A stretch of 34,666 bases of DNA from assembly GCF_000403135.1 (NCBI RefSeq), contig NZ_AQPN01000010.1:1-34666 (forward strand). Reading direction: 5' to 3'. The notes beneath the pieces were generated by a model that saw nothing but the letters and a program-made list of their open reading frames with translations, ran no database searches and was not told the DNA's origin. The first letter of the stretch is position 1. Each line of letters begins with the position of its first letter. Positions 6,534 through 9,605 of the stretch are shown one piece after another. Position numbers and translations under genes: made by a program. The DNA comes from Arcticibacter svalbardensis MN12-7 (GTDB taxonomy: Bacteria; Bacteroidota; Bacteroidia; Sphingobacteriales; Sphingobacteriaceae).

Positions 6534-6977
6534 TTATTCAGCGATCACTTCAAAAGGAACCTGAACCTTCACTTCTTTATGAAGATTTAAGTTAGCAACA
6601 TATTCGCCAACAAATTTAGGTTCTGATTCGAATGTGATACGACGACGGTCTACTTCAAATCCTAGTTTTTTCAATGCTTCTGCTACCTGAATGGTATTTA
6701 CTGCACCAAAGATCTTTCCGCTTTCACCAGCCTTAGCGCCGATACTTAATTTAACTCCTTCTAACCGTTCGGCTACAGCAAGAGCGTCATTTTTGATCTT
6801 CTCTTGTTTGAACTGTGCTTGTTTCAGGTTTTCTGCAAGAACTTTCTTAGCAGATGAAGTAGCCATAATTCCGAATCCCTTAGGAATAAGGAAATTACGT
6901 CCGTAACCTGGCTTAACGCTTACAATATCGTCTTTCTCGCCTAGGTTCTTAATATCTTGTTTTAAAATGATTTCCAT
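6534..6977 (-). CDS. rplI: 50S ribosomal protein L9
   Basis: A 147-residue protein with the L9 N-terminal domain (MEIILKQDIKNLGEKDDIVSVKPGYGRNFL type pattern; GYGRNFLIPKG near residues 24-34), a long connecting helix (about 40-75) and the C-terminal domain (GKIFGAVNTIQVAEAL onward). It binds 23S rRNA near the L1 stalk. It is the last gene of the S6-S18-L9 operon, 15 bp after rpsR. Length is normal. Confidence 0.98.
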   Translation of the reverse strand: MEIILKQDIKNLGEKDDIVSVKPGYGRNFLIPKGFGIMATSSAKKVLAENLKQAQFKQEKIKNDALAVAERLEGVKLSIGAKAGESGKIFGAVNTIQVAEALKKLGFEVDRRRITFESEPKFVGEYVANLNLHKEVKVQVPFEVIAE

Positions 6978-6992
6978 GCTGATCTACCTCTC

Positions 6993-7256
6993 TTATTTTA
7001 TTGAATCAGTAACATAAGGTAATATACCAATATGGCGTGCACGTTTAACTGCTTGCGCAACTTTACGCTGAAACTTCAATGATGTTCCTGTTAAACGACG
7101 TGGTAATACTTTACCCTGGTCATTGATGAACTTCAAAAGAAAATTTCCGTCCTTATAATCAATATATTTGATACCGTTCTTTTTGAAACGGCAATATTTC
7201 TTACGTGTATCCTCTACTTTAGGGGCTGTTACGTATTGAATTTGTTCTCTTGCCAT
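6993..7256 (-). CDS. rpsR: 30S ribosomal protein S18
   Basis: An 87-residue protein with the S18 pattern: KYCRFKKNGIKYIDYKD, then LPRRLTGTSLKFQRKVAQAV, and RARHIGILPY. It pairs with S6 on the 30S platform. Its ATG shares one base with the stop of rpsF (TAATG), indicating translational coupling. In many bacteria ssb lies between rpsF and rpsR; here it does not. Confidence 0.98.
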   Translation of the reverse strand: MAREQIQYVTAPKVEDTRKKYCRFKKNGIKYIDYKDGNFLLKFINDQGKVLPRRLTGTSLKFQRKVAQAVKRARHIGILPYVTDSIK

Positions 7257-7630
7257 TATTTTGAAGCGTTCTCGGTTTGATTATCAGTTTTCGGTTTCTT
7301 CAGGAATGCTCCACTATGTTTCTTTAAATTGTACGCAATAGCATGTTTGTCTAAAGAAATCGTAAGGAAACGCATAACTCGTTCGTCACGTCTAAGCTCA
7401 ACCTCCAGTTTGTTAATTAAGTCACCCGGGGCCTTGTATTCAGTTAGGTGATAGTATCCTGTTGTTTTCTTTTCAATAGGATACGCAAGTTTCTTCAAAC
7501 CCCAATTATCCTCATGGATAATTTCGGCTCCGTTACCTGTTAGAAGACCACTGATTTTGGTTAAAACCTCTTTCACTGCCTCTTCTGATAACAACGGGGT
7601 AAGAATGATTACTGTTTCGTACTGTTGCAT
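7256..7630 (-). CDS. rpsF: 30S ribosomal protein S6
   Basis: A 124-residue S6 protein: it begins MQQYETVIILTPLL and contains EDNWGLKKLAYPIEKKTTGYYHL and the RDERVMRFLTI strand. The C-terminus is a short polar tail (KTDNQTENASK). It is the first gene of the operon, with a strong Bacteroidota promoter at 7673-7704. It is divergent from dnaX. Confidence 0.98.
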   Translation of the reverse strand: MQQYETVIILTPLLSEEAVKEVLTKISGLLTGNGAEIIHEDNWGLKKLAYPIEKKTTGYYHLTEYKAPGDLINKLEVELRRDERVMRFLTISLDKHAIAYNLKKHSGAFLKKPKTDNQTENASK

Positions 7631-7763: not shown

Positions 7764-9605
7764 ATGGATAATTTCTTAGTATCGGCTAGAAAATATAGAC
7801 CAACAACGTTCGAAAGCGTTGTGGGTCAGTTACATATAACCAATACGCTTAAAAATGCCATTAAAAATAATCAGCTAGCACAGGCCTTTTTATTCTGTGG
7901 TCCACGTGGTGTAGGCAAAACTACCTGCGCCCGAATTCTTGCAAAGACCATTAATTGTGAAAATTTAAGTGCCGAAACTGAGGCTTGCGGGGTTTGTCCG
8001 TCTTGCCGGGCCTTCCTGAATGGTAATTCTTTTAATGTACATGAGCTGGATGCGGCATCGAATAACTCGGTGGATGATATCCGGAGTCTGACGGAACAGG
8101 TCAGGATTCCACCACAAGCTGGCCGGTACAAGATCTATATTATTGATGAGGTTCACATGTTATCTCAGGCGGCTTTTAATGCTTTTTTGAAAACACTGGA
8201 AGAACCTCCTTCCTACGCGATCTTTATTCTCGCCACTACAGAGAAACATAAAATCCTTCCTACTATATTATCAAGGTGTCAGATCTTTGACTTTAACCGG
8301 ATCAAGGTGGATGATATGGCTCATCACCTGGCGGGCATTGCGAAAAAGGAAAATGTGACTTATGATGCGGATGGACTGCATGTGATTGCGCAAAAGGCGG
8401 ATGGCGGACTGCGTGATGCCCTGTCTATGTTCGATCAGATTGTCAGCTTTTCTAACCGGAACATCACCTATAAGGCGGTTATTGATAACCTCAACATCCT
8501 TGATTACGACTATTATTTTAAAGTGACGGATCATTTACTGAATGAGGATATCGCTTCTACCCTGCTTGTTTTTGATGAGATCCTCGTGAATGGTTTTGAT
8601 GGTAATAATTTCATCACCGGACTGGCTTCTCATTTTAGAAATCTGTTGGTTGGAAAAGATACAGCTACTTTAAAACTTTTGGAAGTGAGTGAGGGAATCA
8701 GGAACCGGTATATGGAACAGTGTAAAAAAACATCTGCTTCTTTTCTGCTTACCGGTTTAAATATTGCCAATCAATGTGATCTGAATTATCGGAACAGTAA
8801 AAACCAGCGTTTGCAGGTGGAAATCTCACTGATTAAGATCTGTCATATTACTTCTGCTTTAAATCTGGCTAATACTGCTCCTGATGAGGTTGTAAAAAAA
8901 AAACCTAATCCCGTCATAGGTAATGCTGCTGCTCTTCCGGCTCAAACACCTGTAAAACAGCCTAATGCTGTCGTTCAGACACCTTCAACACCGACAATTC
9001 CAGCTTATCCAGCACCTGCTATACCAACAATACCGGTTATACAGATGCCTGTTGCAGCAGTACAGGTCCAGAATGATGCTGCACCTGCAACTTTTCAGGC
9101 TGCACCTCCTGCCAAGCCTAAAATTCTGATTAAAAAACTGCTGAACAATGGGTCGCTCATTCCAAATCTGAATGATCTGGCAAGCACTTCGGTGGCTGGG
9201 GAAGATAATGCACCTCAGTATGTTTCGGGCGACATGAAAGAGCATTTTAGCTCCGAAGATCTATTGCTGGCATGGAATAAATATGCTCAGGATATTCTGA
9301 AAGAGAATAAGATGAGCATATATACTTTAATGCATGCAAATGAACCCGTTTTAAAGGATAACTTCCAGGTGGAGGTGATTGTAGACAATCGGATCCAGGA
9401 AAACCTGCTCGTTCATGAAAAGGTTGATCTGCTTAACCGCTTAAGGGTTGAACTTCAAAATTTCAAAATTGACCTGATCGTCCGTTATGTAGAAAAAAAT
9501 GAGAAGAAACAGTTGTATACTTCTCATGATAAATACCAGCACCTGGTTGCTAAAAACCCAAATCTGGATGATCTCCGTAAACGATTCAACCTTGATCTGA
9601 GCTAA
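7764..9605 (+). CDS. dnaX: DNA polymerase III subunit gamma/tau
   Basis: A 613-residue clamp-loader ATPase. Walker A is GPRGVGKT (46-53), the zinc module uses C65, C75, C78 and C81, Walker B is IYIIDEVHML, sensor 1 is LATTEKHKI with SRC just after, and sensor 2 is GGLRDALSMFDQ. Domain III ends near residue 370. A Pro/Ala/Val/Gln-rich linker (about 380-480) joins a tau-like C-terminal domain. I start at ATG 7764 (MDNFLVSARKYRPTTF), the family start; the open frame upstream runs back across the rpsF promoter and into rpsF on the opposite strand. A run of ten As (8894-8903) encoding KKK sits at the boundary between domain III and the linker; both shifted frames stop within a few codons after it. 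Confidence 0.96.
   Translation: MDNFLVSARKYRPTTFESVVGQLHITNTLKNAIKNNQLAQAFLFCGPRGVGKTTCARILAKTINCENLSAETEACGVCPSCRAFLNGNSFNVHELDAASNNSVDDIRSLTEQVRIPPQAGRYKIYIIDEVHMLSQAAFNAFLKTLEEPPSYAIFILATTEKHKILPTILSRCQIFDFNRIKVDDMAHHLAGIAKKENVTYDADGLHVIAQKADGGLRDALSMFDQIVSFSNRNITYKAVIDNLNILDYDYYFKVTDHLLNEDIASTLLVFDEILVNGFDGNNFITGLASHFRNLLVGKDTATLKLLEVSEGIRNRYMEQCKKTSASFLLTGLNIANQCDLNYRNSKNQRLQVEISLIKICHITSALNLANTAPDEVVKKKPNPVIGNAAALPAQTPVKQPNAVVQTPSTPTIPAYPAPAIPTIPVIQMPVAAVQVQNDAAPATFQAAPPAKPKILIKKLLNNGSLIPNLNDLASTSVAGEDNAPQYVSGDMKEHFSSEDLLLAWNKYAQDILKENKMSIYTLMHANEPVLKDNFQVEVIVDNRIQENLLVHEKVDLLNRLRVELQNFKIDLIVRYVEKNEKKQLYTSHDKYQHLVAKNPNLDDLRKRFNLDLS
8894..8903 (+). other. A10 slippage-prone tract in dnaX
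   Basis: Ten consecutive As cover the last base of a GTA codon and three AAA codons (residues 378-380). With one A added the next codons are ACC TAA; with one removed they lead to TAG after a few codons. A shortened, gamma-like product of about 382-387 residues would contain domains I-III only. Confidence 0.6.

Follow-up and report, generated by a model that had tools for sequence, protein, structure and literature searches.

That dnaX can be expressed through slippage is already known, from Thermus and from the survey of Antonov et al. (2013). In Thermus thermophilus the slippage takes place on a run of nine As (A9), which lies late in a gene that holds tau in one open reading frame (ORF) and has near stops in both of the other frames (PMC1088944, PMC5009743). 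Antonov et al. described 17 dnaX genes with two ORFs from 12 genera, 12 of them with poly-A and nine with ten As, Chlorobi being among those with shorter runs; gamma is the zero-frame product, tau is reached after a -1 shift at the DNA level, and transcriptional realignment was suggested (PMC3711429). In E. coli dnaX, the frameshift site A_AAA_AAG is flanked by a stimulator resembling a Shine-Dalgarno sequence on its upstream side and by a hairpin on its downstream side (PMC3711429), and gamma extends one codon beyond the shift (PMC5009743). Outside dnaX, the transposase gene of Roseiflexus IS630 carries a T5C5 motif which shows no detectable slippage without its context, slippage being stimulated by a nascent stem-loop adjacent to the motif on its 5' side (Penno, 2015; PMC5009743).

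We have analysed dnaX in a 34,666-nucleotide stretch of the Arcticibacter svalbardensis MN12-7 genome (hereafter, the window), together with its counterparts across Bacteroidota. The features of the gene are collected in Table 1.

Table 1. Features of dnaX in the window, with the loci of a related lineage that carry an in-frame TAG.
Feature	Position	Strand	Remarks
dnaX, tau ORF (DNA polymerase III subunit gamma/tau)	7764..9605	+	613 aa, 68.4 kDa; NCBIfam NF011531, E 2.6e-260
Domains I-III (AAA+ ATPase, lid, domain III), common to tau and predicted gamma	7764..8858	+	Pfam
26 nt directly 5' of A10, hairpin site in the group	8868..8893	+	own gene: weak 3-bp stems
A10, putative slippery tract	8894..8903	+	register GTA AAA AAA AAA CCT (V377 K K K P)
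linker and C-terminal region confined to tau	8904..9602	+	predicted to be translated only from mRNAs with 10 As, or with 10 plus or minus a multiple of 3
TAA terminating +1A mRNAs	8906..8908	+	predicted gamma-like product, 381 aa
TAG terminating -1A or +2A mRNAs	8917..8919	+	predicted product, 384 aa
TAG loci (outside the window)	L238, L258 (= L339), L275, 62 further among L340-L408		

Pfam matches in DnaX of the window cover aa 22-180 (PF13177), aa 186-231 (PF22608) and aa 243-365 (PF12169), while the NCBIfam dnaX_nterm match stops at aa 360; over residues 1-369 or more, the protein is 78-80% identical to those of Pedobacter and Mucilaginibacter loci, which by itself would make membership of Sphingobacteriaceae probable. 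The first-pass annotation of this DNA had noticed the A10 in dnaX, placed it exactly at the end of domain III and proposed that slippage on it makes a gamma-like product. Reading of the sequence confirmed the run within the gene, beginning at the third base of codon 377. Its position is just past domain III but not exactly at the end, since it follows the ends of the Pfam and NCBIfam matches by 12-17 residues. Both shifted frames do stop within a few codons, as had been stated: by translation of the window gene, an mRNA with one additional A (+1A) would give a 42.5-kDa product ending in KKKT, while loss of one A (-1A) or gain of two (+2A) would give a 42.8-kDa product ending in KKNLIPS. The gene thus resembles Thermus dnaX in having at least nine As late in the gene, after the ATPase domains, in having tau in one ORF and in having stops soon after the run in both non-tau frames. 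In contrast to the Thermus A9 as it has been described, the Bacteroidota run is mostly exactly A10, is spread across much of the phylum and is often accompanied by a hairpin on its 5' side.

As a bare sequence, the run is unexceptional. One A/T run of ten or more is seen in the 34.7-kb window, as compared with 1.3 expected from first-order simulations, and the chance of such a run in a given 60-nt stretch on one strand is about 0.001. The whole genome (4.69 Mb) contains 15 exact A10 runs on its two strands, and only that of dnaX is flanked on either side by more than 100 open codons of a single sense-strand frame. Because the bare run is not unusual in the window, the case rests on its conservation at the dnaX site.

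Other parts of this genome yielded side observations. Outside the window, an exact A10 on the minus strand (L303; G000:C101:41113-41124) links two open frames that lie in different frames, about 391 codons before the run and 383 after it; possible explanations are another gene expressed through slippage, a pseudogene and an error of assembly. Three further A10 runs (L301, L302 and L305) are antisense within open frames of 268-448 codons, and would be T10 on the coding strand if those frames are genes. Divergent from dnaX, on the minus strand of the window at 6534-7630, lie ORFs that resemble ribosomal protein genes, presumably rpsF-rpsR-rplI.

With residues 1-375 as the query, dnaX was found in 6/6 genomes of the genus, 194/201 of the family, 61/61 of the order, 146/149 of the class and 146/148 of the phylum, in samples that overlap, the order sample consisting of members of the window's family only. 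Two sets of loci were read at the site. The first contained 189 distinct loci that were hand-picked to span families, with short-open-frame rows favoured (L052, a second copy of L046, was dropped); the second contained the best 80 named loci of a separate scan, none identical to a first-set locus over a 300-nt key. Together these are 269 loci, 268 of which are readable at the site, as L290 of the second set ends before it.

A run of A9-A13 is present at the site in 221 of the 268 readable loci and is exactly A10 in 170. All 49 loci read from the window's family carry it (41 A10, four A9 and four A11), as do 163/189 in the first set (122 A10, 27 A9, 13 A11 and one A12) and 58/80 in the second (48 A10, five A9, three A11, one A12 and one A13), L290 being scored here as without a run and the A9 and A11 cases being those mainly touched by the homopolymer sequencing errors that are possible in public genomes. 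Relatives thus hold nine or more As at this place, which had been suggested as a check. Between nt 1020 and 1310 of the gene, the longest A run in the 269 loci is of at least nine in 221, of eight in none and of seven in two, whereas in 1068 control stretches of equal length from the same genes it reached nine in two and never more. Elsewhere in the first-set genes there are only eight other runs of A9 or longer in 347 kb, as against 163 at the site. The run begins at codon position 1, 2 or 3 in 21, 76 and 66, respectively, of the 163 first-set loci. As it occupies all three registers and specifies different peptides, amino acids are not what is conserved, and an explanation in terms of lysine codons or of the protein was therefore rejected. 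Nevertheless, the run is not indispensable in the phylum, since 47/268 readable loci are without it. G+C content is 0.43 in loci with the run and 0.51 in those without, although 29 loci above 50% G+C still carry it.

Two arrangements occur at the run: the zero frame encodes tau in 148 loci over both sets ('tau-first') and gamma in 70 ('gamma-first'). The tau-first count includes L055, whose zero frame ends at 471 aa; L056, L083 and L146, which are cut off by contig ends, were given no state on the tree described below. In the first set, both non-tau frames are closed within six codons in 134/163 loci (median 5). Among its 114 tau-first members, 83% close both off-frames within six codons, as compared with 14% at control positions (control median 17), so that quick closure of the shifted frames is far commoner in relatives than at control positions. 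Over the whole tau-first group, the +1A frame stops within two codons in 128 loci, compared with 22% of controls.

In the gamma-first genes, tau is reached by +1A in 61 and by -1A or +2A in nine, four of which have exactly A10 (L092, L174, L256 and L291). An intact tau tail, judged by a match at E<=1e-5 to a profile from 147 tau-first loci, is present in the shifted frame in 68/70, the exceptions being L199 and L236. The gamma-first share is 21/58 in the second set; the 49/163 in the first set is not a frequency, because short-frame rows were favoured there, which was not so in the second. In the second set, the loci read from Flavobacterium and Chryseobacterium have the gamma-first arrangement and those from Pedobacter, Mucilaginibacter, Aquimarina and Hymenobacter the tau-first one. 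Gamma-first genes resemble those of Antonov et al. in having gamma in the zero frame and tau after a -1 shift at the DNA level (PMC3711429); unlike that set, the loci studied here show both arrangements at one site across a phylum, interconverting. Annotation of gamma-first genomes would be likely to show a truncated DnaX, so that tau may easily be missed.

A FastTree phylogeny of 268 proteins requires no fewer than 34 switches of arrangement. When only exact A10 loci are considered (115 tau-first and 52 gamma-first), at least 24 changes are needed, whereas 100 label shuffles gave a mean of 44 and a minimum of 35. The arrangement is inherited, yet it has been switched many times while the run persisted. 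That at least 24 changes fall among exact A10 loci means that one run serves both arrangements and, A10 being constant, that changes of arrangement arise outside run length. Sequencing error was rejected as a general source of gamma-first genes, since in 52 of them the run is an exact A10 and the arrangement is common to all members of several groups; it is possible for single A9 or A11 cases such as L046, L053 and L054. In a single genome (L239, dnaX nt 1099-1149), the zero frame is of gamma length (383 aa) and a different register holds a long open frame, but there is no A run.

Inverted repeats ending at the run were first spotted by eye in aligned first-set contexts and were then tested there; the second set was fetched after the hairpin had been seen in the first. 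In the first set (n=163), the 26-nt segment ending at the run start has a mean z of -1.96 relative to other segments of the same gene; it ranks among the best 5% of such segments in 44% of loci and among the best 10% in 59.5%. Segments ending 90 to 6 nt before the run have mean z of +0.14 to -0.33, those containing the run are less structured (z up to +0.86), and those lying wholly on its 3' side (ends +39 to +90) show no structure peak (mean z +0.06 to -0.25). When compared with synonymous recodings, 28.2% of loci are at p<=0.05 (mean z -1.06), as against 5.2% of 652 control sites (mean z -0.08); the 5' hairpin in the group exceeds what the protein requires. In the second set, the segment at the run start has a z of -1.49, with 34% of loci in the best 5%; other offsets give +0.78 to -0.75, the lowest being at +6, where most of the hairpin is included, with -0.68 at -36. 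Taking one mean per family or unassigned locus gives a z of -1.51 for 95 groups, 55 of them below -1 and 22 above 0. Folds of -5 kcal/mol or better are present in 118/221 loci and end 0-3 nt before the run in 100. Longer segments ending at the run (40 and 60 nt) have mean z of -1.07 and -1.01, whereas 3' segments of these lengths, starting 0-20 nt after it, have no signal (mean z -0.21 to -0.01).

The window's own gene differs in strength from this pattern. Its 5' stretch folds weakly (-2.7 kcal/mol, or -3.6 with 6-10 nt more), with z of +0.33 relative to shuffles and +0.35 relative to recodings. The genus mates L006 and L009 fold strongly, at -13.3 and -11.2 kcal/mol, but their z relative to recodings is only -0.73 and -1.78. 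Downstream of the window's A10, the 60-nt segment has a z of -0.73 and 49/200 shuffles are as good. An E. coli-type 3' stem-loop was looked for with 60-nt segments in the window gene and with 26-, 40- and 60-nt segments in the group, and was not found.

Pairing was also examined in an alignment of Flavobacteriaceae, made from 16 of 23 rows: L173, L281 and L261 were left out for their different geometry and L176, L178, L284 and L286 because each is identical to an included row, while L174, whose stem ends 1 nt before the run, was entered one base further upstream. In this alignment 78% of cells are paired, a value as high being reached by 1/500 shuffles, but counts of two-sided changes are within those of the shuffles. 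As covariation is modest, the case for the hairpin rests on the own-gene, recoding, second-set and per-group tests. The arrangement is like that of Roseiflexus IS630, where an RNA stem-loop likewise adjoins the slippery motif on its 5' side (PMC5009743), although here the motif is an A10 in a housekeeping gene and the hairpin is variable and sometimes weak. A hairpin at this position in dnaX is unmentioned in the main-text passages of PMC3711429 that we cite, and in no paper searched was a dnaX 5' hairpin abutting the run described. Among the titles and abstract openings of open-licence literature, we found nothing on a phylum-wide dnaX site, on interchange of arrangements or on a 5' hairpin in dnaX.

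We consider it likely that the A10 is a programmed transcriptional slippage site that yields tau and gamma from one gene; comparison among relatives supports, at the level of sequence, the earlier proposal of a gamma-like product arising by slippage. RNA polymerase, whose RNA-DNA hybrid of 9-10 bp (PMC5009743) is about as long as the run of ten A:T pairs, would realign on this run, and dnaX mRNAs with varying A counts would result. Those with 10 (or 13) As would encode tau; those with other counts would meet a stop codon shortly after the run and yield gamma, with ATPase domains I-III. In many relatives, slippage is probably promoted by a hairpin that forms in the nascent RNA next to the run on its upstream side, much as terminator hairpins weaken the hybrid; this structure would emerge from RNA polymerase at the moment when the hybrid comes to consist of A:T pairs only. 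The hairpin of the window gene is weak, and slippage there may depend mainly on the run itself. A run whose length is kept and whose register is not, together with structure on the 5' side, fits transcriptional slippage. That the slip is made by RNA polymerase and not by the ribosome, and that gamma is produced and used, we infer from the sequences.

The rival that survives best is -1 ribosomal frameshifting of the E. coli dnaX type, in which a slip on A_AAA_AAA would give gamma, or tau in gamma-first genes. Any A10 contains this heptamer, in whatever register, and the +1A frame, which is equivalent to a -1 frameshift, reaches a stop sooner in tau-first genes and carries tau in 61/70 gamma-first genes. 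AGGA or GGAG 4-mers are mildly enriched upstream, being found in the 16 nt before the run in 32/221 loci (14.5%), as compared with 5.9% at control sites; in Flavobacterium loci, GGAG is part of the 3' arm of the hairpin. Furthermore, E. coli reporters carrying poly-A cassettes of other genes yielded shifted product, and more of it with longer runs (PMC3711429). Nevertheless, ribosomal frameshifting appears unlikely to account for the site. The heptamer would suffice for it, but there are hardly any runs of 7-8 As and the commonest length is exactly 10. The outcome would be the same as in E. coli dnaX, but the Bacteroidota loci have a longer run and are without a 3' structure signal; a hairpin that lies directly 5' of the run, and not 3', is at odds with a frameshift of the E. 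coli type. Structure at that place would be covered by a ribosome that is reading the run. Finally, nine of the 70 gamma-first genes need -1A or +2A, four of them with exactly A10, and these point to transcription under the rule of Antonov et al., by which mixed shift directions do so (PMC3711429).

It is more improbable still that the run is a tolerated accident of a lysine-rich linker and A/T-rich DNA, the stops only limiting damage and gamma being functionless. The number of A/T runs of 9-10 in the window is indeed close to that expected by chance, and run-bearing loci are lower in G+C than the others. Against this stand the scarcity of A9 and longer runs elsewhere in the same genes, the persistence of the run in the 29 loci of high G+C, the need for a slip to make tau at all in gamma-first genes, and the presence in one run-less lineage of another in-frame stop signal at the same boundary. 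The least credible alternative is phase variation, in which replication slippage would alter run length and toggle tau between cells, for although lengths of 9-13 occur, with A9, A10 and A11 in one family, the length is 10 in 170/221 loci, dnaX encodes an essential replication subunit, and exact A10 loci still need their 24 or more changes of arrangement.

In the run-less lineage just mentioned, three of the 47 loci without the run, from gut Bacteroidales, have an in-frame TAG at the gamma boundary, with tau continuing in the same frame. In the family of one of these loci, dnaX was found in 144/149 genomes searched; 71 rows have exactly one in-frame stop, which is TAG, and three have TAA. We read 72 loci, comprising 30 returned by the search, 40 that were chosen from its table (six of them without TAG), L238 and L275; L339 and L258 are one gene. 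In 65 of the 72, the TAG lies at residues 363-389 (Table 1). Its context, counted from the T of TAG as 0, is near-invariant, TAG-AT(T/A)-GCA-AG(A/G): A3, T4, G6, C7 and A9 are the same in 65/65 loci, A8 in 89% and G10 in 97%, whereas linker columns outside this element are mostly 30-70% conserved. The frame is open for at least 62 codons past the TAG in 63/65 loci (median 137, limited by the stretch fetched). In L405 and L406, the zero frame ends at the TAG, and a tau-like ARSPQAEH, identified by eye, appears in another frame. No run of A8 or longer was found in nt 1020-1300 of the seven loci without such a TAG, and none was found in 32 loci inspected from this search.

Readthrough of the UAG to make tau is the best reading of this lineage and a candidate mechanism; translation reinitiation is a possible alternative. 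Reassignment of UAG is not supported: rpoB is without an in-frame stop in the two genomes, of three examined, in which it was found, and RF1 (prfA) is present in 6/6. Pyrrolysine was likewise set aside, there being no PylS match above the cut-off in 6/6 genomes and one sub-threshold hit. RNAalifold gave no consensus structure for the UAG region, where there is little sign of local structure (z about -0.7), and a literature search on UAG readthrough in dnaX returned no matching paper. Although it lies outside the window, this case bears on the A10, since it suggests that two DnaX products are under selection.

A broader reading, which we find as easy to doubt as to accept, is that dnaX of most Bacteroidota carries a terminator-like cassette of hairpin and A10 that would set the gamma:tau ratio and let lineages swap the zero-frame product without losing either; in the run-less gut Bacteroidales, a UAG in near-invariant context would have taken over, with tau made by readthrough. 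The many natural cassettes of hairpin plus A10 are offered for study of how RNA structure drives slippage by RNA polymerase. Gamma arises differently in E. coli, Thermus and Caulobacter, and its role in E. coli has been controversial (PMC5009743). In Bacteroidota, a run kept within a variable linker, tau that stays readable whichever frame it occupies and, in one lineage, another candidate recoding device at the same boundary are strong evolutionary evidence that both products are wanted.
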